From NCBI RefSeq assembly GCF_013466425.1, contig NZ_CP059165.1:3286001-3350000 (forward strand): a DNA stretch of 64,000 bases, read 5' to 3'. Made by a program: the position numbers and the translations under genes. This DNA comes from Mycobacterium vicinigordonae (GTDB lineage: Bacteria > Actinomycetota > Actinomycetes > Mycobacteriales > Mycobacteriaceae). Positions 33,338 through 45,897 of this stretch are shown in pieces; position 1 is the stretch's first letter, and each line of letters starts with the position of its first letter. Under the pieces are notes generated by a model. The model saw nothing but the letters and a program-made list of their open reading frames with translations, made no database searches and was not told the origin of the DNA.

Positions 33338-33655
33338 ATGTTAGAAAGCGTAACGGTCCGCAATAACGGGGTTTCACAGCAGCGCGAGCAGGATGCACGT
33401 TTGTTGAAGGAGTCGGGCGCACACAAGCTCATCGTCGCCGACCGCGATGGAAACTGCCTGGCGTTCGTCCTGGCCTGGGACCGCTTCGACTACGACCCCG
33501 AGACAGACACCTACGTCTGCGTGGTGGACTCCGACGGCAGAGAACTCATGAACATATACACCGCCGGGGAGATCAAGGCAGCACCCGGAACGAACATGTA
33601 TGTCATCACCGCGCCCGAAGAACACCCCCGCCGCAAGCCGTTGCAGGCTCTCTAA
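33338..33655 (+). CDS. Hypothetical protein at the left edge of the mce island
   Basis: A 105-residue soluble protein with a good AAGGAG site 8 bases before its ATG. The sequence is acidic and beta-rich (HKLIVADRDGNCLAFVLAWDRFDYDPETDTYVCVVD) and ends with a basic proline-containing tail. I recognise no family. It is followed by a hairpin terminator and precedes the tetR gene. It does not belong to the conserved Rv1879-cyp140 order. Confidence 0.65.
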   Translation: MLESVTVRNNGVSQQREQDARLLKESGAHKLIVADRDGNCLAFVLAWDRFDYDPETDTYVCVVDSDGRELMNIYTAGEIKAAPGTNMYVITAPEEHPRRKPLQAL

Positions 33656-33665
33656 AAGCAGCGCG

Positions 33666-33899: not shown

Positions 33900-33917
33900 A
33901 GACCGTTCGTACGGTTA
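33900..33917. promoter_or_regulatory. Mce-island operator O1 (tetR promoter)
   Basis: AGACCGTTCGTACGGTTA contains the perfect inverted repeat ACCGT-N4-ACGGT. It ends 20 bases before the tetR ATG, so TetR probably represses its own gene. It shares GAC-N4-CGTAC-N-GT with O2, O3 and O4. Confidence 0.75.
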
Positions 33918-33937: not shown

Positions 33938-34609
33938 ATGCCCAGATCGCCCGGCCGACGCGGCGAGATTCTCGACGCGTTTGTCCGTTATGTGGCCGAA
34001 CGCGGCTATGACAGAACGAATATCGGCGATATCGCCGACGAGCTCGGTATGTCCAAGGGCACCATCGTGCATCACTTTGGGACCAAGGCGCAGATGCTGC
34101 GGGAGTTGGAGGAAACCCACCTGGCCCGTCAGCTCGATGTGCTGCGGATGGCGTGGGATCGACTGAGCGCGCCTCACGAACGAATTGCGGCGATCATCTA
34201 CACCTCCGCACTGCTGCAGGTGATCGCCCACCATTCCACGGTGGCGAGCCAGCGTGAAGTGGTCCAATTGTTCGATGATCCCGCGATGGAGCAGGTGCGA
34301 AAGCTGCGCGAGCAGCTGCAGTCGCTCACCGTTGACGAGATTCGTACCGGGGTGCAGGCCGGCGTATTCCGCGGCGTGGACGTCGAATTGGCCGCCCTGC
34401 AGTTGTGGGGGTCACTGGAGTGGATGTGGGTCTGGTTCGATCCCGCAGATTCGCGACCTCCCGAGCAGGTGGGGGCCGCGTTCGTCGATGTGTATCTCGG
34501 GGGACTGCTGCTCGACCGCCTAGGACTGAACAAGTGGGCGGATCCAGCAGCGGACGTCCTCTCGGTAGTGCGCGACTGCCTCACCGCGGTAATAGGCGCG
34601 CCGACCTGA
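33938..34609 (+). CDS. TetR-family regulator of the mce island
   Basis: A 223-residue TetR repressor. The N-terminal helix-turn-helix (TNIGDIADELGMSKGTIVHHFGTK, near residues 28-51) is followed by a helical ligand domain. It is half the size of Mce3R, which is a fused double TetR, so it is not that protein. It precedes the yrbE-mce operon on the same strand, and a conserved palindrome lies at both promoters. A lipid or acyl-CoA ligand would fit the family and the neighbours, but that is inferred. Confidence 0.9.
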   Translation: MPRSPGRRGEILDAFVRYVAERGYDRTNIGDIADELGMSKGTIVHHFGTKAQMLRELEETHLARQLDVLRMAWDRLSAPHERIAAIIYTSALLQVIAHHSTVASQREVVQLFDDPAMEQVRKLREQLQSLTVDEIRTGVQAGVFRGVDVELAALQLWGSLEWMWVWFDPADSRPPEQVGAAFVDVYLGGLLLDRLGLNKWADPAADVLSVVRDCLTAVIGAPT

Positions 34610-34661: not shown

Positions 34662-34679
34662 TGACTCAGCGTACGGTAA
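34662..34679. promoter_or_regulatory. Mce-island operator O2
   Basis: TGACTCAGCGTACGGTAA shares GAC-N4-CGTAC-N-GT with the other three copies. It lies 53 bases after the tetR stop and 155 bases before O3. Confidence 0.65.
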
Positions 34680-34816: not shown

Positions 34817-34834
34817 TGACTGAACGTACGGTCT
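34817..34834. promoter_or_regulatory. Mce-island operator O3 (mce promoter)
   Basis: TGACTGAACGTACGGTCT overlaps a TTGAC element, so bound repressor would block polymerase. It is the copy nearest yrbEA, 196 bases upstream of its start. Confidence 0.7.
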
Positions 34835-35030
34835 AATGCGATAGTTGCCCCGTGGCGCAAACACGAGCGGCAGAGAGCCGGCGGGCGCCGACAGCAACCG
34901 TCGGCCGCGAAGCCCGCATGGTTCACCTCGCGCTTAGCAACCCGGTTCCCGCGCGATCGCAGGCCATCGCCCGAACACCGAAATATGTTTTGAATCAATA
35001 TGTTTCCGGTAGCCATCCGGGGGCACGCCG

Positions 35031-35825
35031 ATGAGCGCCCCCAGCACCATCGTCGGCAGAGTAGGCGACAAGATCAGACCGGGCACGGAGGTAGCCGGCG
35101 GATTCTTCCGGATGTGCGTACTGACCGCCAAAGCCCTCAAGCAGCCGTTCGAATGGCGTGAATTCATCTGGACCGGCTGGTTTCTCATGCGGGTGTCGCT
35201 GTTGCCCACCATCGCGGTTTCCATCCCAGAAACCGTGCTGCTCATCTTCACACTCAACGTCCTGCTGGCCGAGTTCGGCGCCGCCGACGTCTCGGGTGCC
35301 GGTGCCGGCATCGGAGCGGTCACCCAGCTCGGCCCGATCGTGACGGTGCTGGTGGTGGCCGGAGCCGGCGGCACCGCCATCTGCGCCGACCTCGGAGCCC
35401 GAACCATCCGCGAAGAGATCGACGCGCTCGAAGTGCTCGGCATCGACCCGATCCACCGCCTGGTCGTCCCCCGCGTCGTCGCCTCCACCATGGTCGCGGT
35501 GCTGCTCAACGGCCTGGTGATCGCCGTGGGATTGGGCGGCGGCTACCTGTTCAGCGTCTACCTGCAAAACGTTTCGAGCGGCGCATACCTGTCCACGTTG
35601 ACCGCGCTCACCGGCCTGCCCGAGGTAGTGATCGCCAACATCAAGGCCGCCAGCTTCGGCCTCATCGCCGGTTTGGTCGGTTGTTACCGCGGATTGATCG
35701 TCCGAGGCGGGTCCAAAGGCCTGGGCACTGCGGTCAACGAGACCGTGGTCCTGTGCTTCATCGCGCTGTTCGCCGTCAATGCGGCGCTGACCACCATCGG
35801 CGTCCGGTTCGGCACAGGACGCTGA
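35031..35825 (+). CDS. yrbEA: YrbE-type permease, subunit A of the mce operon
   Basis: Integral membrane permease of the Mce lipid importer, related to MlaE. The 264 residues have five or six membrane helices and the family motif EEIDALEVLGIDPIHRLVVPR near residue 125, which contacts the ATPase. Mce systems import lipids such as cholesterol or fatty acids, powered by the distant Mkl ATPase. The start ATG follows a GGGGG-type site. First gene of an eight-gene operon; 1 base separates it from the next gene. Confidence 0.93.
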   Translation: MSAPSTIVGRVGDKIRPGTEVAGGFFRMCVLTAKALKQPFEWREFIWTGWFLMRVSLLPTIAVSIPETVLLIFTLNVLLAEFGAADVSGAGAGIGAVTQLGPIVTVLVVAGAGGTAICADLGARTIREEIDALEVLGIDPIHRLVVPRVVASTMVAVLLNGLVIAVGLGGGYLFSVYLQNVSSGAYLSTLTALTGLPEVVIANIKAASFGLIAGLVGCYRGLIVRGGSKGLGTAVNETVVLCFIALFAVNAALTTIGVRFGTGR

Positions 35826-35826
35826 G

Positions 35827-36699
35827 ATGGCCGGTTCCACAGCAGTCGCCAACGCCCGCATTCGCTGGCCGCGAGCCAACTTAGCTCGGTACGGCGGCGC
35901 GCCTGCCCGGCTGCTACTCGAGATCGGCCAGTTGATCTGGTTTGCGGTCACCGCCATTGGGCAGATCCCGTTTGCCCTGCATCGCTACCGCAGAGAACTG
36001 GTGCGCATGGTCGCCCAGATGGGGATGGGCACCGGAGCGATGGCCGTGGCCGGTGGCACCGCCGCCATTGTCGGATTCATCACCCTGTCCGCAGGTTCGC
36101 TGGTCGCCATCCAGGGATTCGCGTCGCTGGGCAACATCGGTGTCGAGGCATTCACCGGCTTCCTCGCCGCGATGGTCAACGTGCGATTCGTGGCGCCAGT
36201 AGCCGCCGGACAGGCGTTGGCCGCCACCGTCGGAGCTGGCGCCACCGCCGAACTCGGCGCCATGCGCATCAGCGAGGAGATCGACGCGCTGGAAGTGATG
36301 AGTATCAGGTCGATCGCCTTCCTGGTGTCCACTCGGGTGGTGGCCGGCCTGATCGTCATCATCCCGCTCTACGGGCTGGCGATCACCCTGGCCTTCCTCT
36401 CCGCGCAGCTGACCACCGTGTTTCTCTACGGGCAGTCCGCGGGCACCTACAACCACTACTTCCACACCTTTCTGCGCCTTAACGACGTGGGCTGGTCCTT
36501 CGCGGAGGTCATCCTGGTTGCGGTGGTCGTGATGACGACCCATTCCTACTACGGCTATACCGCCCACGGCGGCCCGGTCGGCGTGGGCGAAGCGGTCGGC
36601 CGGTCGATGCGGCTGTCATTGATCACAATCGTCGTAGTCGTCGTCCTGACTGCCATGGCGGTGTACGGCAAGAACCCGAACTTCAACCTGACCGGATAG
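35827..36699 (+). CDS. yrbEB: YrbE-type permease, subunit B of the mce operon
   Basis: Second MlaE-like membrane subunit of the Mce transporter, 290 residues. It carries the coupling motif EEIDALEVMSIRSIAFLVSTR near residue 150. The start is one base after yrbEA and the stop is 5 bases before mceA, so expression is coupled. It pairs with YrbEA as the heterodimeric membrane core. Confidence 0.93.
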   Translation: MAGSTAVANARIRWPRANLARYGGAPARLLLEIGQLIWFAVTAIGQIPFALHRYRRELVRMVAQMGMGTGAMAVAGGTAAIVGFITLSAGSLVAIQGFASLGNIGVEAFTGFLAAMVNVRFVAPVAAGQALAATVGAGATAELGAMRISEEIDALEVMSIRSIAFLVSTRVVAGLIVIIPLYGLAITLAFLSAQLTTVFLYGQSAGTYNHYFHTFLRLNDVGWSFAEVILVAVVVMTTHSYYGYTAHGGPVGVGEAVGRSMRLSLITIVVVVVLTAMAVYGKNPNFNLTG

Positions 36700-36704
36700 C
36701 CGAC

Positions 36705-38012
36705 ATGACCAATCCGGTGAAGGAAAATCCGCCTCGAATACCGCCTTACAAGACGGCTGCCGTGGTGTTCCTGTTGGTCTTCGCGGCGGTGCTGGGGTTC
36801 GTATGGTTCCAGTTCCGCGGCCGGCTCACTTCGAAAACGCCCTTGACGCTGCTGGCTCCGCGGGCAGGCCTGGTGATGGATCCGGGGTCGAAGGTCACCT
36901 ATAACGGCGTGGAAATCGGTCGGGTGGCCAGCATTTCGGAGGTGCAGCGGGACGGCGTGCCGGTCGCAAAGTTCGTGTTGGACGTGAATCCGGACTACAT
37001 CAGGTTGATCCCGGCCAATGTGGACGCGAACATCCGGGCCACCACCGTGTTTGGCAACAAATACGTGTCCCTGACCTCGCCGAGAGACCCTATGCCGCAG
37101 CGCATCACACCGGAACACGTGATCGACGCCCGATCGGTAACGACCGAGTTCAACACGTTGTTCGAGACACTCACGTCGATCGCGGAGAAGGTGGATCCGG
37201 TCAAACTGAACCTGACGTTGGCGGCGGCCGCGCAGGCACTGACCGGACTGGGGGAGAAGTTCGGCCAGTCGATCGTCAACGCCAACGCCATCCTCGACGA
37301 CGTCAATCCGCGAATGCCGCGGATCCGCCGTGACATTCAGCAATTCGCAATGCTGGCCGACACCTACGCTGATGCCGCTCCGCATCTGCTCGAGGCGCTG
37401 AACCACGCGGTTGTCACGGCGCGCACGCTGCACCGCCAAGAAGCCGAACTCGATGCCGCGTTGCTGTCGGCCGCCGGGTTAGGCAACACCGGCGAAGACA
37501 TCTTCGCCCGCGGCGGGCCCTATCTGCAGCGGGGACTGGCGGATCTCGTGCCAACTGCGCAGCTCCTAAACACCTACAGTCCCGAATTCTTTTGCACCAT
37601 ACGCAATTACCACGATGCCGAACCCGCGGCCTACCAGACGACCGGCGGTGGCAACGGTTACGGGCTGAAGACCATGACCGAACTGACGTCGGGGCTGGGC
37701 GGCATCCTGACGCTGCCGGGACTGACCGGAGCGGTCCTCAGCCAGGGGCTGCTTGGACTTGCTGGCGTGGTGGGCGGCGCGCCCAATCCTTATGTGTACC
37801 CGGACAATCTGCCACGGGTGAACGCTCGCGGCGGCCCGGGCGGAGCGCCGGGATGTTGGCAACCCATCACGCACGATCTGTGGCCGGCGCCAAGTCTGGT
37901 GGTCGACACCGGCGCCAGCCTCGCACCATACAACCACTTGGACACCGGATCCCCGTACGCACTCGAGTACGTCTGGGGCCGTCAGGTCGGGGACAACACG
38001 ATCAACCCATGA
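36705..38012 (+). CDS. mceA: Mce family protein MceA
   Basis: Exported substrate-channel subunit. The 435 residues have one N-terminal membrane helix (about 15-35) and the MCE domain (SKVTYNGVEIGRVASISEV, about 65-85). A long helical region with a Mce4-CUP1-like part follows, then a C-terminal region with CxxxH-type cysteines (FFCTIRNYHD, GGAPGCWQPI). Its stop overlaps the mceB start (ATGA). Six Mce proteins are thought to form a hetero-hexameric tube across the periplasm. Confidence 0.93.
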   Translation: MTNPVKENPPRIPPYKTAAVVFLLVFAAVLGFVWFQFRGRLTSKTPLTLLAPRAGLVMDPGSKVTYNGVEIGRVASISEVQRDGVPVAKFVLDVNPDYIRLIPANVDANIRATTVFGNKYVSLTSPRDPMPQRITPEHVIDARSVTTEFNTLFETLTSIAEKVDPVKLNLTLAAAAQALTGLGEKFGQSIVNANAILDDVNPRMPRIRRDIQQFAMLADTYADAAPHLLEALNHAVVTARTLHRQEAELDAALLSAAGLGNTGEDIFARGGPYLQRGLADLVPTAQLLNTYSPEFFCTIRNYHDAEPAAYQTTGGGNGYGLKTMTELTSGLGGILTLPGLTGAVLSQGLLGLAGVVGGAPNPYVYPDNLPRVNARGGPGGAPGCWQPITHDLWPAPSLVVDTGASLAPYNHLDTGSPYALEYVWGRQVGDNTINP

Positions 38013-39049
38013 AGATAACCGCCAGCGCGATCAAGCTCAGCATCGTCTCACTGGTGCTGTTCCTCATCACGGCGTCAATTGTCGTGGTGTTCGGGCAGAT
38101 GCGCTTCAACAGTACCAACAGCTATACCGCGGAGTTCAGCAATGGCAGCGGCCTGCGCGACGGGCAGTTCGTGCGCGCGTCCGGGGTGGAGGTCGGCAAG
38201 GTCAAGGCCGTCCGCCTCATCGACGGCGGCAGCCGCGTCCTGGTGGATTTCGATGTCAACCGCTCAATATCGCTGTATCAGTCGACCACCGCGCAGATCC
38301 GCTATCTGGATCTGCTCGGAAACCGGTTCGTGGAGCTCAAGCGCGGCGAGGGCGACGGCGCTGACCGGGTGCTGCCGGCCGGCGGTTTCATCCCGCTGTC
38401 CCGGACCTCTCCGGCACTGGACCTCGACGCCTTGATCGGCGGATTCAAACCGCTGTTCCGGGCGCTCGAACCGAACAAGGTCAATACGATCGCGACGGCG
38501 ATTATTACCGTGTTCCAGGGGCAGGGCGGCACTATCAACGACGTCCTCGACCAGACCGCACGATTGACCGCGCACATCGCCGAACGTGATCAAGCGATCG
38601 GCGAGGTGGTCAAGAATCTGAACATCGTGCTGGACACCACGGTTCGGCATCGCCAGGAGTTCGACGGCGTCATCGACAATTTCGAAAGATTGATCACCGG
38701 CTTGAGCAATCACGCCGACCCACTGTCCACCGGCGTAGCGCAGCTCAGCGAGGCCGTTGGCACGGTCGCCGACCTGCTCTCGGACAATCGAGCGTTGCTG
38801 CACAAGGAGATCGGCTACCTGCAGGCGCTGCAGCAGCCGATCCTCGATCAGCGCGAACAGCTCAACGATCTGATCCACAAGACCCCCACTGCCCTCAACC
38901 TGATCGGTCGCAGCATCGGCCTCTACGGAGACTGGGTCAACTTCTATCTCTGCGACCTGCAGATCAGGTGGAACGGATTGCAGGCGGGTGGCCCGGTCCG
39001 CACCGTCAAGATTTGGCAGCAGCCCACCGGCAGGTGCACGCCGCAATGA
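38009..39049 (+). CDS. mceB: Mce family protein MceB
   Basis: A 346-residue Mce subunit beginning MKITASAIKLSIVSLVLFLI, an N-terminal membrane helix. The MCE domain is GLRDGQFVRASGVEVGKVKAV, followed by a long coiled helical region. The C-terminus is short, with one Cys in YLCDLQIRW and one in GRCTPQ. The ATG overlaps the mceA stop and the TGA overlaps the mceC start (ATGA). Confidence 0.93.
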   Translation: MKITASAIKLSIVSLVLFLITASIVVVFGQMRFNSTNSYTAEFSNGSGLRDGQFVRASGVEVGKVKAVRLIDGGSRVLVDFDVNRSISLYQSTTAQIRYLDLLGNRFVELKRGEGDGADRVLPAGGFIPLSRTSPALDLDALIGGFKPLFRALEPNKVNTIATAIITVFQGQGGTINDVLDQTARLTAHIAERDQAIGEVVKNLNIVLDTTVRHRQEFDGVIDNFERLITGLSNHADPLSTGVAQLSEAVGTVADLLSDNRALLHKEIGYLQALQQPILDQREQLNDLIHKTPTALNLIGRSIGLYGDWVNFYLCDLQIRWNGLQAGGPVRTVKIWQQPTGRCTPQ

Positions 39050-40485
39050 GAACCCTCAAAGAGTTCAACCGCTACCGCGTCGGCCTGATGGGCATCGCCG
39101 TGCTGGTGCTGGTTGTTGCCGTCGGCCAGAGCTTCACCAGCGTCCCAATGATGTTCGCCACGCCCGCCTACTATGGACAGTTCACCGACACCGGCCAGCT
39201 GAGCAAGAACGACAAGGTACGTATCACCGGAGTCAATGTGGGCACCGTGCAGGGACTCGACATCGACGGCGACCTCGTCCGGATCAAGTTTTCGATCGGC
39301 GCCAACACCATCGGCACCGAGAGCCGGCTCACCATCAAGACCGACACCATCCTGGGTAAGAAGGTGCTTGAGATCGAGCCCCGGGGAAAGCGGACGTTGC
39401 AGCCGGGGGGAGTGTTGCCCTTGGGCCAAACCACCACTCCCTATCAGCTCTACGACGCGGCCTTCGATGTCACCAACGCCGCCACCGGCTGGGACATCGA
39501 CGCTGTCAAGCAATCGCTGAACGTGTTGTCGGAGACCATCAATCAGACCTACCCGCATCTCAGCGCCGCCCTGGACGGGGTGGCCCGGTTCTCCGACACG
39601 GTCGGCCAGCGCGACGAACAGATCAAGCACCTGCTCGCTCAGGCCAACCAGGTCGCCAGCGTGCTAGGTGACCGCAGCCAGCAGGTCGAACGGTTGTTGG
39701 TCAACACCAAGACGCTGCTGGCGGCGTTCAACGAACGCGGACGGGCGATCGACGCCCTGCTGCACAACATCACCGCATTCTCGGCTCAGGTGCAGGGGTT
39801 CATCAACGACAACCCAAACCTGAATTCCGTGCTGGAGCAGTTGCACGGGATCAGCGACCTGCTGGTGGCACGCAAGGACGACCTGGCCCTAACCCTCACG
39901 TACGTAAGCCAATTCGCTGCATCGCTGGGGGAATCTGTCGCGTCGGGACCGTACTTCAAGATCGTCCTGTCCAACTTGCTGCCGCACTGGATGCTGCAGC
40001 CGTTCGTCGACGCCGCGTTCAAGAAGCGGGGAGTCGACCCCGAAGAGTTCTGGCGCGACGCTGGGCTGCCGGCATTCCGCTTCCCGGACCCGAACGGCAC
40101 CCGGTTCCCCAACGGCGCACCGCCGCCCGCGCCTGCGGTGTTGGAAGGCACCCCCGAGCATCCGGGACCGGCCGTCCCCCCCGGGACACCCTGTTCCTAC
40201 ACCCCGGCCGCGGACTCACTGCCCAGGCCCTGGAACCCGCTACCCTGCGCGGGCACCGACCTCGGCCCCTTCGGTGGCAATTTCCCAGCGCCGCTGGACG
40301 TTCAAACGTCACCGGCGGTCCCCAACGGCGTGCCACCCACGCCGGGAATCTCGATCGCCGGGCGACCTGGCGAGCCGCCGCCCGATGTCCCCGGTACGCC
40401 GGTACCGCTGCCGCCGAACGCGCCGCCGGGAGCCCGGGTCGAGGCGCCCCAACCCGTCGGCCCAACGAGAGGTGACCAGAATTGA
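39046..40485 (+). CDS. mceC: Mce family protein MceC with proline-rich tail
   Basis: A 479-residue Mce subunit. It has an N-terminal membrane helix (GLMGIAVLVLVVAVGQSF), an MCE domain (NDKVRITGVNVGTVQGLDIDG) and a long helical channel region. A proline-rich C-terminal tail of about 110 residues follows (from EGTPEHPGPAVPPGTPC). ATG 39046 is coupled to the mceB stop. The tail is probably extracellular and disordered, reaching into the cell wall. Confidence 0.93.
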   Translation: MRTLKEFNRYRVGLMGIAVLVLVVAVGQSFTSVPMMFATPAYYGQFTDTGQLSKNDKVRITGVNVGTVQGLDIDGDLVRIKFSIGANTIGTESRLTIKTDTILGKKVLEIEPRGKRTLQPGGVLPLGQTTTPYQLYDAAFDVTNAATGWDIDAVKQSLNVLSETINQTYPHLSAALDGVARFSDTVGQRDEQIKHLLAQANQVASVLGDRSQQVERLLVNTKTLLAAFNERGRAIDALLHNITAFSAQVQGFINDNPNLNSVLEQLHGISDLLVARKDDLALTLTYVSQFAASLGESVASGPYFKIVLSNLLPHWMLQPFVDAAFKKRGVDPEEFWRDAGLPAFRFPDPNGTRFPNGAPPPAPAVLEGTPEHPGPAVPPGTPCSYTPAADSLPRPWNPLPCAGTDLGPFGGNFPAPLDVQTSPAVPNGVPPTPGISIAGRPGEPPPDVPGTPVPLPPNAPPGARVEAPQPVGPTRGDQN

Positions 40486-42062
40486 GCGCCTTCGGTTTTC
40501 GCAACCTGTGGCTGCGCAGGTCCGTCGCGACGCTGGTCGCCGCGCTGGCCCTGGTCGCCGGATTCTTCGGCTGGCAGACCTACCAGCAGTTGACGAACAA
40601 CACCGTCGTCGCCTACCTGCCGTCGGCGATCGGGCTGTACTCGGGCGACAAGGTCCAGATCATGGGCGTGCGGGTCGGATCGATCGACACCATCGAGCCG
40701 GCCGGCGACAAGATGAAAGTCACCTTCCACTACAAGAACAAGTACAAGGTCCCCGCCAACGCGTCCGCCGTGGTGGTGAACCCCACCCTGGTGGCGTCAC
40801 GAAGCATCCAGCTGGAGCCGCCTTACAAAGGCGGCCCGGTGCTGGCCGATCACGCGGTCATCCCGCTCTCGCGCACCCAGGTGCCCACCGAGTGGGACCA
40901 GCTTCGTGAGAGCGTCGCGCACATCATCGACAAACTCGGTCCGACGCCCCAGCAGCCCACCGGCCCATTCGGTGAACTCATCGAGTCGTTCGCCAACGGG
41001 CTAGCCGGTAAAGGCGAACAGATCAACACCACGCTGAACAGCCTGTCGCAAGCGCTGACCGCGCTCAACGAAGGCCGCGGCGACTTTTTCGCGGTAGTGC
41101 GCAGCCTGGCACGTTTCGTCAACGCCCTGCATAAGGACGACCAGCAGTTCGTCGCGTTAAATACCAGCCTGGCTCGCTTCACCGACAAGTTGACCGGATC
41201 TGATCACGACCTCGCCAACGCGATCCAGCAATTCGACGGCCTGCTCGCCACGCTGCGCCCATTCCTGGCCAAGAACCGCGAAGTCCTGGCACGTGATATC
41301 GGCAACCTCGACACCCTGACCACCACCTTGGTCCAACCCGAGCCGCTCAATGGGCTAGAAACCGCCCTGCACGTGCTGCCGACCCTGGAGACCAATCTCA
41401 GCCAGATCTACCACCCGTCGCACGGCGCAGTCATGTCCATCCCGGCGATTCCGAATTTCGCGAACCCAATGCAGTTCATGTGCAGCATGATTCAGGCAGG
41501 CAGCCGGTTGGGCTATCAAGACTCCGCCGAGCTTTGTGCGCAATATCTGGCGCCGATTCTCGACGCGATCAAGTTCAACTATCTTCCGTTCGGACTGAAC
41601 CTGTTCAGCACCGCCGAGGTGCTACCGAAACACGTTGCGTACTCCGAGCCCCGCCTGCAACCGCCAAACGGTTATAAGGACACGACGGTGCCGGGCATCT
41701 GGGTGCCGGATGGCCCGCTGTCCCACCGCAACACCAGCCCGGGCTGGGTGGTTGCCCCGGGCATGCAGGGTGTGCAGGTGGGTCCGGTCACCGCGGGACT
41801 GCTCACTCCAGAATCGCTGGCCGAACTGATGGGCGCGGCGGATATCGCACCACCGGCTTCGGGTCTGCAGACGCCACCCGGCCCGCCCAATGCCTACGAC
41901 GAGTACCCTGCTTCGCCTCCGATCGGCCTGCAAGCGGCGGCGCCGATTCCGCCGCCGCCACCGGCGTCGGGTGTGCTGCCGGGACCCGTTGCGCCGACAC
42001 CCGCCCCGGTTGGACCGGCACTGCCCGCGGAGGCGGTCACATCGAACGGACCGGCCTCGTGA
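40482..42062 (+). CDS. mceD: Mce family protein MceD with proline-rich tail
   Basis: A 526-residue Mce subunit starting at a rare TTG overlapping the mceC stop (TTGA). The membrane helix is ATLVAALALVAGFFGWQTY and the MCE domain is SGDKVQIMGVRVGSIDTIEP. Helical repeats follow, then a C-terminal proline-rich tail (PPPPPASGVLPGPVAPTPAP). The stop overlaps the mceE GTG. Confidence 0.92.
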   Translation: MSAFGFRNLWLRRSVATLVAALALVAGFFGWQTYQQLTNNTVVAYLPSAIGLYSGDKVQIMGVRVGSIDTIEPAGDKMKVTFHYKNKYKVPANASAVVVNPTLVASRSIQLEPPYKGGPVLADHAVIPLSRTQVPTEWDQLRESVAHIIDKLGPTPQQPTGPFGELIESFANGLAGKGEQINTTLNSLSQALTALNEGRGDFFAVVRSLARFVNALHKDDQQFVALNTSLARFTDKLTGSDHDLANAIQQFDGLLATLRPFLAKNREVLARDIGNLDTLTTTLVQPEPLNGLETALHVLPTLETNLSQIYHPSHGAVMSIPAIPNFANPMQFMCSMIQAGSRLGYQDSAELCAQYLAPILDAIKFNYLPFGLNLFSTAEVLPKHVAYSEPRLQPPNGYKDTTVPGIWVPDGPLSHRNTSPGWVVAPGMQGVQVGPVTAGLLTPESLAELMGAADIAPPASGLQTPPGPPNAYDEYPASPPIGLQAAAPIPPPPPASGVLPGPVAPTPAPVGPALPAEAVTSNGPAS

Positions 42063-43207
42063 GAGGCGCACGGGCCGTGCGGAAGCTGGCGTGGATCGGG
42101 ATGGCGATGGCGCTCACGTCGTGCGCGAATTGGCAGGGCATCGCGAACGTGGCAATGCCCGGCGGCCCCGGCAGCGGGCCCGGCTCCTACTCCGTCTATG
42201 TGCAACTGGCCGACACGCTTGCCCTTAACACAAACAGCCGGGTGCGGGTGGCCGACGTCTTCGTCGGAACGGTGCGCTCGATCGACCTGAAGAACTGGGT
42301 CGCCACGCTGACCCTTCAGCTGGACGGAAATGTGAAGTTGCCCAGGAACGCCACCGCCAAGATCGGGCAGACCAGCCTGCTGGGATCTCAGCATCTGGAG
42401 TTGGCGGCGCCACTGGACCCCTCTCCGGAGCCGTTGCGGCCGAACGACACTATCCCGCTGAGGAACTCGTCGACGTACCCCACCACCGAGCAGACCCTGG
42501 CCAGTCTGGCGATGATCCTGCGCGGCGGCGGTGTCCCCAACGTCGAGGTGGTGCAGAATGAGGTCTACAACGTCCTGAACGGCCGGGCTGGTCAGATTCG
42601 AGACTTCCTCGGCAAGCTGGACACATTCACCGCCCGACTGGACGAACAACGCGAAGACATCACCCGTGCAATCGATTCCACCAATCGACTGCTGGGCTAC
42701 GTGGGTCGTCGGGCGGCCGTCGTGGATCACGTTCTCACCGAGTTCCCACCGTTGCTCAAGCATTTCGCCGAAAAGCAGAACCTGTTGATCAATGCGGTCG
42801 ACGCGACGGGACGACTCGGGCGGGTCGCCAACCAGCACCTGTCCGCCGCGCAGAGCGACTTCCACCAGGATCTGCTGTCGATGCAGTGTCCGCTACGCGA
42901 ACTTGGCCGCGCCGCACCGTATTTGATTCGGGCCCTGAAGTTGATGCTGGTCCGGCCGTTCGACGTCGACGCCGTGCTCAAGTCGTTCCGCGGCGACTAC
43001 TTCAATCTGTCGTTGACGCTCGACTTGACCTTGAGCGCCGTGGACAACGCCGTGCTGACCGGCACTGGCTTCTCCGGGGCGCTGCGCGCCCTCGAACAAT
43101 CGTGGGGCCGCGACCCAGAAACGATGATTCCCGATGTCCGATACACGCCCAATCCCAACGATGTTCCTGGCGGACCGCTGGTCGAGCGGGCGGACATGCA
43201 ATGCTGA
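42059..43207 (+). CDS. mceE: Mce family lipoprotein MceE (Lpr-type)
   Basis: A 382-residue Mce subunit with a lipoprotein signal: MALTSC puts the lipid-modified Cys at residue 22. The MCE domain follows (NTNSRVRVADVFVGTVRSI), then the helical region. The fifth mce gene is the lipoprotein in all mce operons. Start GTG overlaps the mceD stop; the 3' end overlaps mceF by 7 bases. Confidence 0.93.
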   Translation: MRGARAVRKLAWIGMAMALTSCANWQGIANVAMPGGPGSGPGSYSVYVQLADTLALNTNSRVRVADVFVGTVRSIDLKNWVATLTLQLDGNVKLPRNATAKIGQTSLLGSQHLELAAPLDPSPEPLRPNDTIPLRNSSTYPTTEQTLASLAMILRGGGVPNVEVVQNEVYNVLNGRAGQIRDFLGKLDTFTARLDEQREDITRAIDSTNRLLGYVGRRAAVVDHVLTEFPPLLKHFAEKQNLLINAVDATGRLGRVANQHLSAAQSDFHQDLLSMQCPLRELGRAAPYLIRALKLMLVRPFDVDAVLKSFRGDYFNLSLTLDLTLSAVDNAVLTGTGFSGALRALEQSWGRDPETMIPDVRYTPNPNDVPGGPLVERADMQC

Positions 43208-44751
43208 CCCGCTTCATCTGGCGCCAGTTGTTCATGTTCACGATGCTGAGCGCGATCACCGCGGTGGCGCTGGGCTGGTACTACCTCCAGATTCCCACCG
43301 CGGTCGGGATCGGCCAGTACACGCTCAAGGCGAACCTGCCGATCTCGGGCGGGCTGTACCGGACGTCCAACGTGACGTATCGCGGTGAAACCATCGGCAA
43401 GGTGACCTCCGTCGAGCCGACCGAACGGGGTGCGCTGGTGACCATGAGCATCTCCGACCGCTACCGGATCCCGATCGACGCGTCGGCGAACGTGCATTCG
43501 GTATCGGCAGTCGGCGAGCAGTATCTGGATCTGGTGTCGGAAACCGGTGTGCACGAATACTTCTCACCCGGACAGACCATCAGCAAGGGCACCGTACCCA
43601 CCGAGATCGGACCCGCGCTGGATGCCGCCAATCGCGGGCTGGCTGCGCTACCCAAAGAAAAGATTGCGCTGCTCCTCGACGAGACAGCGCAGGCCGTCGG
43701 CGGGCTGGGTCCCGCGCTGCAACGCCTGGTCGACGCCACCCAGGCCATCGCTAGCGACTTGCAGGCCAACCTCTCCGACGTCGATGACATCATCGAGAAC
43801 TCCGCGCCCATCATCGACAGCCAGGTCACGTCCCGCGATGCGATCGATCGGTGGGCGGACAACCTGGACGTCCTGGCCGCGCAGAGTGCGGAAAACGATC
43901 AACACGTGCAGAGCATCCTGGCCCAGGCGGCGCCGACGGCCGATCAGGTCAACGCGGTGTTCGACGACGTTCGCGAGTCGCTACCGCGGACGCTGGCCAA
44001 CCTTGAGATCGTGCTGGACATGCTCAAGCGCTACCACAAAGGCGTCGAGCAACTGCTGGTGTCTTATCCGCAGGGCGCCGCCGAAGGGCAGACGGTCACG
44101 TCGGCTTTCCCTGGCTACGCCGCGCTGGGCACCTCGCTGACAATCAACCAACCCCCACCCTGTCTGACCGGCTTTCTGCCGGCGTCCCAGTGGCGGTCTC
44201 CGGCGGACACCAGCCTGGCGCCGATGCCGTCCGGAATCTATTGCAAGATCCCGCAAGACACTCCGGCCAACGCAGTGCGGGGCGCGCGCAACCTGCCGTG
44301 TGTCGACGTCCCCGGCAAGCGCGCCGCCACGCCGCGGGAGTGCCGCGACCCTAATCCGTATGTCCCGGCAGGAACCAATCCCTGGTACGGCGACCCGAAC
44401 CAGATCCTGACCTGCCCGGCACCGGCGGCGCGGTGCGACCAACCAGTGAAGCCTGGTCAGGTGGTGCCGGCGCCGTCGGTCAACAACGGGCTCAACCCGG
44501 CGCCGGCCGACCGCGTACCTGGCACGCCTCCGCCGGTCAGTGACCCGTTGACTCGACCCGGGACGGGCAGCGTGGCCTGCAATGGGCAGCAACCCAACCC
44601 GTGTGCCTACACGCCCGGTGGGCTTCCGGCGTCGGTGTACCTCCCGCAGAGCGGTGAGCTGATCGGCCCGGATGGGGTCCGATACTCCGTCGGCGACTCG
44701 ATCGGAATTGGCGACGACGGTTGGAAATTCATGTTGGCACCGCGACCATGA
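43201..44751 (+). CDS. mceF: Mce family protein MceF
   Basis: A 516-residue final Mce subunit. It has an N-terminal membrane helix (FMFTMLSAITAVALGWYYL) and an MCE domain (LYRTSNVTYRGETIGKVTSVEP). A helical region is followed by a long Cys/Pro-rich C-terminal domain with about ten cysteines, likely disulphide-bonded outside the cell. It is the last gene of the operon; no mas (Mce-associated) genes follow, unlike mce1, mce3 and mce4 of M. tuberculosis. Confidence 0.93.
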   Translation: MLTRFIWRQLFMFTMLSAITAVALGWYYLQIPTAVGIGQYTLKANLPISGGLYRTSNVTYRGETIGKVTSVEPTERGALVTMSISDRYRIPIDASANVHSVSAVGEQYLDLVSETGVHEYFSPGQTISKGTVPTEIGPALDAANRGLAALPKEKIALLLDETAQAVGGLGPALQRLVDATQAIASDLQANLSDVDDIIENSAPIIDSQVTSRDAIDRWADNLDVLAAQSAENDQHVQSILAQAAPTADQVNAVFDDVRESLPRTLANLEIVLDMLKRYHKGVEQLLVSYPQGAAEGQTVTSAFPGYAALGTSLTINQPPPCLTGFLPASQWRSPADTSLAPMPSGIYCKIPQDTPANAVRGARNLPCVDVPGKRAATPRECRDPNPYVPAGTNPWYGDPNQILTCPAPAARCDQPVKPGQVVPAPSVNNGLNPAPADRVPGTPPPVSDPLTRPGTGSVACNGQQPNPCAYTPGGLPASVYLPQSGELIGPDGVRYSVGDSIGIGDDGWKFMLAPRP

Positions 44752-44873: not shown

Positions 44874-44904
44874 TTGACACTGACCGCACGTACAGTCATA
44901 TAAT
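44874..44904 (+). promoter_or_regulatory. Promoter of the triple-Phd gene
   Basis: TTGACA (44874-44879) and TATAAT (44899-44904) are perfect consensus -35 and -10 elements, 19 bases apart. Operator O4 fills the spacer. Such a strong sigma-A promoter is unusual in mycobacteria. An in-frame ATG at 44903 falls inside the -10 box, which supports the later start at 44954. Confidence 0.7.
44881..44898. promoter_or_regulatory. Mce-island operator O4 (triple-Phd promoter)
   Basis: TGACCGCACGTACAGTCA is an 18-base near-palindrome (7 of 9 pairs match) and shares GAC-N4-CGTAC-N-GT with O1-O3. It exactly fills the space between the -35 and -10 elements, the classic position for repression. Confidence 0.78.
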
Positions 44905-44953: not shown

Positions 44954-45421
44954 ATGCCGGAAGTGATTGGCCTGGGCCAACTTCGGAGTGATGCGTGCAC
45001 CTATCTCGACCGAGTCCGGGCCGGTGAAGCATTTGACGTCATCCGCCGCGGCAGGCTGGTGGCCAGCATCGTGCCGGTCGGAGAGCGGAGAGTAGCTCCG
45101 ATCCCGACGCAAAGCACCGCAGCAGCGAACCGAGGTGGGTGGGTCCGGCTGGCCGAATTGCGGACCCGCGCCGGGCAGTGCTTCGATCGTGTCGCAGGCG
45201 GGGAGACCCTCTACGTCGTTCGCGGCGGCAAGATCCTGGCGCAGATCAAGCCAGCCGGCGATGCACCGCAGCAACCCGTCCCGGCGGATGCCGGAGGGCG
45301 GGTTGCGCTGCACGAGCTGAGAAGTCGGCCCGGACGCTACTTGGACCAGGTGGCCGCGGGGCAGAGCATCGAGGTCAGCCGCGGCGGCAAGGTAGTCGCA
45401 CGAATCGTGTCAGTGGCGTAG
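44954..45421 (+). CDS. Orphan protein of three tandem Phd/YefM-like antitoxin units
   Basis: A 155-residue protein made of three copies of a 36-residue unit at residues 7-42, 66-101 and 119-154, joined by Ala/Pro/Gly linkers. The shared pattern is LxxLR[ST]xxxxYLD[RQ]V..GExxxVxRxG[KR]xVAxI, the DNA-binding N-terminal half of Phd/YefM antitoxins. The toxin-binding C-terminal halves are missing and no toxin gene is adjacent. ATG 44954 has GGAG and GGAA sites upstream. It likely acts as a DNA-binding regulator, possibly of the mce operon or itself; that role is inferred. Confidence 0.82.
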   Translation: MPEVIGLGQLRSDACTYLDRVRAGEAFDVIRRGRLVASIVPVGERRVAPIPTQSTAAANRGGWVRLAELRTRAGQCFDRVAGGETLYVVRGGKILAQIKPAGDAPQQPVPADAGGRVALHELRSRPGRYLDQVAAGQSIEVSRGGKVVARIVSVA

Positions 45422-45426
45422 CCGGG

Positions 45427-45897
45427 TCAGACCAACTCGGATGCGTCGAAAATCCACGAGTTGTCGCCGCCGGCCAGCCTTTCGAAGTGCTGTGGTGGCG
45501 CGAAACCGACCAGACTATTCATGTCCCAATAGTCCTTCCAGACGGTGATCTTGCCGTCGACCACCTTGTGCACTGTGACAAAGCGCAGCACACCTTGCTC
45601 ACCACTCTTGAAAGTCCAGGTCTCCGAGTGCTCGTAGATGACATCAGCGCCGTTGGACACCAGCACCCCGTCGTGGTTCTCATAACCCGCGAGGTCTTCC
45701 AGACCGAGTTTGAGCCGCGTCACGATGTCCTGCGGGCCGCGCGCCGATGCAGCTGGTATGGGCATGTCGACATAAAGGCAGTCCTCGGACAGGAACGTCT
45801 TGATCGCATCCCAGTCCCGCCGGGAGAGTGCCCGCCACATCCCGGTGACGACATCTGCTTCGGAGCTGGACACTGTCGGCGCGGAAACCTCTGTCAT
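45427..45897 (-). CDS. Limonene-1,2-epoxide hydrolase/SnoaL-like protein
   Basis: A 156-residue alpha+beta-cone protein. The run VDMPIPAASARGPQDIVTRL, EHSETWTFKSG and DGKITVWKDYWDMNS resembles limonene-epoxide hydrolase-type proteins (EphG-like), with Asp/Arg/Asp candidates for the catalytic triad. The substrate is unknown; sterol or fatty-acid epoxides are plausible next to an mce operon. Start ATG 45897. It converges on the triple-Phd gene, 5 bases apart. Confidence 0.8.
   Translation of the reverse strand: MTEVSAPTVSSSEADVVTGMWRALSRRDWDAIKTFLSEDCLYVDMPIPAASARGPQDIVTRLKLGLEDLAGYENHDGVLVSNGADVIYEHSETWTFKSGEQGVLRFVTVHKVVDGKITVWKDYWDMNSLVGFAPPQHFERLAGGDNSWIFDASELV

Follow-up and report, generated by a model that had tools for sequence, protein, structure and literature searches.

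A protein of three Phd/YefM-type units encoded behind a mycobacterial mce operon, a putative transporter regulator

Three Phd/YefM-type units in one chain

The window analysed here, a stretch of 64,000 nucleotides from Mycobacterium vicinigordonae (NZ_CP059165.1, positions 3,286,001 to 3,350,000), carries an mce operon with a TetR regulator gene in front of it and a small gene behind it. The small gene (P0001), an open reading frame (ORF) of 155 amino acids on the forward strand at 44954-45421 with GGAGCG 5' of its ATG, encodes three Phd/YefM-type N-domains in one chain. Unit 1 (44966-45079) spans residues 5-42 with invariant Arg11 and Arg31/32, unit 2 (45140-45256) residues 63-101 with invariant Arg70 and Arg90, and unit 3 (45299-45415) residues 116-154 with invariant Arg123 and Arg143, all on the same strand. 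The upstream neighbour is mceF (MlaD/Mce4_CUP1). Downstream lies a convergent gene on the opposite strand that resembles SnoaL/limonene-epoxide-hydrolase (LEH) by Pfam (45427-45897).

The three units, first proposed in a sequence-only reading of this DNA, are borne out by profile searches of the whole protein. The Pfam profile PF02604 (PhdYeFM_antitox) matches it at E 2.6e-13 and 50 bits (cut-off 29.8) in three stretches, each passing E 1, while TIGR01552 (phd_fam) scores 35.6 bits (cut-off 20.8) through a single stretch on unit 3. Full-length orthologues repeat the three units in the same register, far above chance, a comparison that is partly circular in that its HMM was made from the family itself. 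Searched one by one with PF02604, unit 3 retains a clear match (E 1.1e-6), but since all isolated units fall under the Pfam cut-off, units 1 and 2 (E 0.017 and 0.035) are weak when taken alone. The fold comparison gives a similarly divided result: the Phd/YefM structures 6jqy, 4zlx, 3hs2 and 4zm2 stand near the top of the fold searches (best Foldseek E 0.01), with the VIA fold rows spanning mainly residues 111-155, that is, unit 3, whereas the fold of units 1 and 2 comes from predicted secondary structure only. No match in these fold searches spanned two or three units.

Arginines equivalent to R10 and R31 of YefM, which contact the operator according to PMC3303803, are invariant in all three units of 45/45 coding sequences; the equivalence was drawn from the motif and from aligning the units with Phd and VapB46, rather than from a DNA-bound structure. 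The toxin-binding C-terminal tail is absent, as the earlier reading had it: the chain stops at residue 155 straight after unit 3, and the PF02604 profile is aligned just to position 42 of 74. The protein shares with the Phd/YefM antitoxins (P1 Phd, Escherichia coli YefM and Mycobacterium tuberculosis VapB46) the beta-alpha-alpha-beta-beta unit fold, the LR and VxRxG motifs and the operator-contact arginines, and differs from them in that its chain holds three units and lacks the tail, that no toxin partner was seen, and that it belongs to a TetR-mce gene set.

Conservation with one mce operon and a shared set of palindromes

Among the 297 Mycobacterium genomes of our genus sample, 112 have a match to the three-unit protein at E <= 1e-3. 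A full-length orthologue (>180 bits) is present in 39 of them by hand count, the remainder being smaller, divergent or single-unit, and it sits behind mceF of one mce operon in all 39 as well as in 15 loci of named genomes. The term orphan, used in the sequence-only reading, is thus misleading; the gene is kept together with one mce operon and the TetR gene of that operon, and it has two-unit, one-unit and TetR-fused relatives. Beyond the genus sample, a match at E <= 1e-6 is present in 28 of 397 genomes sampled from the order, with 12 at full length (hand count, including a divergent copy in G246; G and L numbers are our handles for genomes and loci) and all within the window's genus, and six of 396 genomes of the phylum match, four at full length. 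In the samples searched, the three-unit form turned up only within the window's genus, and the out-of-genus matches inspected (G650, G438 and G428) are single-unit.

The TetR gene (TetR_N, TetR_C_24; 33938-34609, forward strand) lies upstream of the mce operon, which runs from yrbEA and yrbEB through mceA-F (35031-44751, forward strand). Pfam identifies yrbEA, mceA, mceE and mceF, with MlaE at both yrbE genes, and mceB-D are named from order and size only. The genome of the window (G000, 6.27 Mb) has 34 MlaE permease genes and about 17 mce operons. An orthologue of the TetR protein (>390 bits) occurs in 45 of the 297 genus genomes, including all 39 with the three-unit gene. Three others (G071, G117 and G191) keep TetR and mce without any significant match to the gene (E 0.22 and 0.82 for the best-scoring unit); in the rest the contig ends within mceF (G015), or the gene is a two-unit (G272) or a broken version (G274). 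The frame behind mceF in L140 does not read as a Phd unit. Of the loci compared, only the window and L020 gave a match to the SnoaL/LEH-like gene, which is not counted in the system. Just 5' of the TetR gene, a small open frame of about 105 codons was read by eye (33340-33656, forward strand).

A palindrome of the pattern GACYGNNCGTNCRGTC recurs across this gene set, with one site before TetR (O1, 33901-33916, one mismatch to the strict pattern), two before yrbEA (O2, 34663-34678, a weaker copy with two mismatches between TetR and yrbEA; O3, 34818-34833, perfect and in the mce promoter region) and one 5' of the three-unit gene (O4, 44882-44897, the putative operator GACCGCACGTACAGTC). O4 lies in the conserved block TTGACACTGACCGCACGTACAGTCATATAcT, inside the 19 nt between TTGACA and TATAAT of a putative promoter (44874-44904, forward strand; hexamers placed by eye). 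In 33 different upstream regions, selected for holding O4, TTGACA is present in 30 and TATAAT or TATACT in 31, 19 nt apart around O4. In the genome of the window, the strict pattern gives both-strand matches only at O3 and O4 and three single-strand matches elsewhere, and the reversed pattern, used as a control, gives one match. The loose pattern (<=2 mismatches) is not enriched across the window (21 matches where 13.8 are expected, a count attained in 8 of 100 shuffles), and only strict matches are informative.

Whether the gene carries O4 follows its distance from mceF. With a gap of more than 75 nt, O4 is found between -35 and -10 in 27 of 28 genomes, the exception being G029; there and in G038, ACG stands opposite the window's ATG in the alignment, and the start and the mceF-gene gap are unsure. 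Where the gene follows mceF closely (gap 11-75 nt), O4 is found in none of the 12 genomes. These counts include the two-unit version of G272. By its own operator copy or by its placement close behind mceF, the three-unit gene is tied to the transporter, so that protein and transporter are probably produced together. In the sequence-only reading, O1-O4 were put forward as repeated half-sites that the three-unit protein itself could bind. The sites do have GTAC at their core, and TGTACA is common to YefM operators (PMC7730913); this shared core is all that speaks for such binding. O1-O3 are retained in G071, G117 and G191, where TetR and mce occur but the gene does not, and O4 is missing where the gene stands close behind mceF, which makes binding of O1-O4 by the three-unit protein quite improbable. 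Since they persist without the gene, O1-O3 most likely serve TetR, and O1-O4 are most probably operators of the TetR gene at 33938-34609, their presumed owner. The three-unit gene would then be a member of this TetR regulon, through O4 in its promoter or its place in the mce transcript.

Straight behind O3, the mce promoter holds a conserved block around ATAGTTGC.GCGTGG.GCAAACG (34834-34870), the right arm of which differs in the three genomes without the three-unit gene and also in 8 of 20 with it. A candidate site TTGC-N8-GCAA behind O3 occurs at 12 of the 20 loci that carry the gene and at none of the 3 that lack it, as well as in L142, where the state of the gene is unknown; it is absent from L146, which has a broken copy.

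Simple Nei-Gojobori estimates of dN/dS, drawn from 54 loci with 45 different coding sequences (L066-L069, divergent or short, excluded), are 0.12, 0.11 and 0.13 for units 1, 2 and 3, and 0.19 and 0.46 for the linkers, so that each unit is, on these values, under purifying selection. Shortened or broken copies do occur in a few genomes (G272, G274 and G076), as expected of a decaying antitoxin remnant, but selection across the 45 coding sequences together with the conserved promoter block renders decay scarcely credible.

Smaller and TetR-fused relatives and the search for a toxin

The Phd unit recurs in mycobacteria in several other arrangements. Divergent three-unit genes are found in G030, G246 and G276, and a copy in G076 is split across two frames. 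The G276 copy (L215, NC_018022.1, 15001-15480) is on a 615 kb plasmid of Mycolicibacterium chubuense NBB4, where it stands behind an mce operon and mce-associated genes; the PLSDB gene table, itself incomplete, does not list it. The same plasmid has a PIN nuclease gene 11 kb from the copy, with a small ORF in front of it as a possible antitoxin of its own, and, 14 kb from the copy, a RES-domain gene paired with an antitoxin-type gene. Two-unit genes include L049, L053, L055-L060 and L065. One-unit genes in four genomes (L070-L073, at about 3.1-4.7 kb) have no long tail and lie a few hundred bases 5' of yrbEA; in L070 a TetR_C_24 gene is close by.

Across the two-unit, one-unit and divergent three-unit genes, an mce or yrbE gene lies within 5 kb in 16 of 23 loci by hand count (L049-L051, L053, L056, L057, L059, L060, L062, L065, L066, L068 and L070-L073), with some of these links resting on weak matches of 46-85 bits and with orthologues included, so that they represent about nine separate placements. 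By chance, about 6% would be expected in the window's genome, as calculated from 17 operons. The other loci (L052, L054, L055, L058, L063, L064 and L067), several of them near contig ends, have no mce or yrbE gene within 5 kb. Excluded from the 23 were L061 and L069 (both the three-unit locus itself), L074 (a fusion) and the ordinary antitoxins or weak matches L075-L077, L087 and L088, which had no mce gene in flanks of about 4 kb; of these, L075, L076, L087 and L088 are ordinary Phd antitoxins. Many of the 112 matches of the genus survey are weaker, mostly single-unit rows outside the inspected loci.

A TetR gene is the immediate neighbour in at least seven two- or one-unit loci, and the idea that one stands beside every smaller form was ruled out, with TetR in 4 of 10 and 2 of 4 neighbours checked by Pfam. 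In L060 (4156-5845) and L065 (4270-6223) the two-unit gene adjoins a double-TetR gene resembling that of Mce3R, a double-TetR regulator of an mce operon; in L065 the two genes are divergent and yrbEA follows. In five genomes a TetR protein ends in one Phd-like unit: L074 (4031-4906, reverse strand; G195), L176 (3993-4799, reverse; G134), L177 (2853-3659, reverse; G201), L178 (3267-4073, forward; G249) and L179 (4043-4951, reverse; G272). For L074, L176 and L179 the TetR part has Pfam confirmation, and comparison by eye shows L177 and L178 to be near-copies of L176.

This closeness to TetR raises the possibility of a protein-binding adaptor, in which the units work off DNA and bind either TetR, with co-repressor or anti-repressor activity, or a portion of the transporter that lies in the cytosol. 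The seven neighbouring TetR genes and the five fusions would suit such a role, as would the fact that no second conserved operator was identified with confidence. However, the invariance of the arginines matching YefM R10 and R31 in every unit suggests that DNA contact is still selected, and a TetR fusion is equally compatible with a DNA-binding extension. We regard an adaptor as unlikely, while holding it the most serious of the alternatives.

In a tree of the units, built from 68 rows and 40 columns and with 24 of its 65 inner branches left open, the first units of all forms cluster with the one-unit and TetR-fused units, and the second and third units cluster together (support 89/70); the ordinary antitoxin L087 is placed with the second units, on a long branch. 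We lean towards an order, suggested by these unit sequences, in which two units came first and the third arose by copying the second.

The sequence-only reading had also noted no toxin beside the gene, and this holds: no toxin family was found on either side of it in the window. The same is true of its relatives, for Pfam toxin families at E <= 1e-4 gave nothing in 108 ORFs downstream of eight three-unit loci, and nothing among the matches listed (25 of 26 families in one batch) for 251 ORFs at 15 two- or one-unit loci; these 251 are all the ORFs of at least 60 amino acids listed for the 15 loci, run as 147 + 104, and a very divergent toxin could escape Pfam. PADLOC on the 147 gave a single weak match (PDC-M63B, E 6.6e-6). 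The units do belong to the Phd/YefM antitoxin family, and an orphan antitoxin acting against a toxin encoded elsewhere in the genome is conceivable. It is nevertheless improbable: no toxin family stands beside either set of loci, the window copy has no tail past its last unit (some orthologues are 10 to 45 residues longer), the expression signals are tied to mce via O4 or position, and the PIN and RES genes of the plasmid, 11-14 kb off, each have a small partner gene.

A proposed regulator of one Mce transporter

Since there is no toxin beside the three-unit gene and the gene is tied to one Mce transporter of the lipid-import type, the protein is better read as a regulator than as part of a toxin-antitoxin pair. 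A tail-less regulator, as the earlier reading had supposed, is the most likely role on present sequence comparisons. We consider it rather probable, with moderate confidence, that the gene encodes a dedicated regulator of this one transporter, derived from a multiplied Phd/YefM N-domain that has discarded its toxin-binding tail. In such a system, the TetR protein would own the O sites and let go of them on binding a lipid-type ligand. The three-unit protein would then bind DNA as Phd/YefM proteins do, both contact arginines being kept in each unit. The odd number of units suggests that two units may pair inside a chain while the third pairs between chains. Either together with TetR or as a second repressor, the protein could in turn act on the mce operon, and this feedback would set the amount of transporter or the duration of its presence.

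Several points weigh against this proposal. No Foldseek match reaches E <= 0.001, which may be expected for units of 43 residues. The three-unit gene is dispensable, in that G071, G117 and G191 keep TetR and mce without it. The operator pattern was taken from the window's own sites, and TTGC-N8-GCAA, the sole candidate site for the three-unit protein, is a weak one found in few lineages. In the TetR-fused proteins the Phd match is under the Pfam cut-off (14.7, 16.3 and 14.3 bits), and no mce gene occurs in the 7-8.5 kb of sequence examined for each of the five. Mce3R-like double-TetR proteins are present in 182 of the 297 genus genomes, and a two-unit gene stands beside only 2 of 30 Mce3R-like loci, so that linkage to Mce3R was rejected as a general rule. 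Finally, the Phd fold may serve other roles, such as protein binding.

Parallels to parts of this design exist. MraZ carries tandem AbrB/MazE-type units in one chain that act on repeated sites; like the three-unit protein, it repeats an antitoxin-like fold within a chain and is a regulator without a toxin, though with two units of AbrB fold against three of Phd fold. Mce3R-type regulators are likewise small and beside mce operons, and two-unit forms adjoin double-TetR genes in G028 and G205, whereas the three-unit protein has another fold and looks like a target of a TetR circuit rather than a primary sensor. Mas genes share with the three-unit gene a conserved place behind mce operons, but PMC1810536 describes their products as exported, in contrast to a small Phd-fold protein, and neither 'antitoxin' nor 'TetR' occurs in the main text of that article. 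In line with the earlier reading, which knew of no described protein of this design, we recognised none in the parts available of the open-licence PMC literature on mce with antitoxin or Phd and on orphan or duplicated Phd regulators (PMC3388012 and PMC1810536 included), which does not establish its absence from print.

It is tempting to extend the proposal to a mycobacterial family of toxin-free Phd-unit regulators, with one, two or three units or fused to TetR, that would be specialised on Mce transporters, each in a two-layer arrangement with a TetR sensor; the third unit, copied from the second, might let a chain occupy an odd array of half-sites. This extension is tentative, at somewhat short of even chances, and the TetR-fused forms without mce neighbours make it slightly less likely. 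If the proposal holds, antitoxin DNA-binding domains would have been freed from toxin-antitoxin life and multiplied into a regulator of a transporter, and Mce importers would have an extra layer of control. The label 'antitoxin' on such genes would be misleading, and TetR with a multi-Phd protein would form a simple two-gene circuit that is directly testable.
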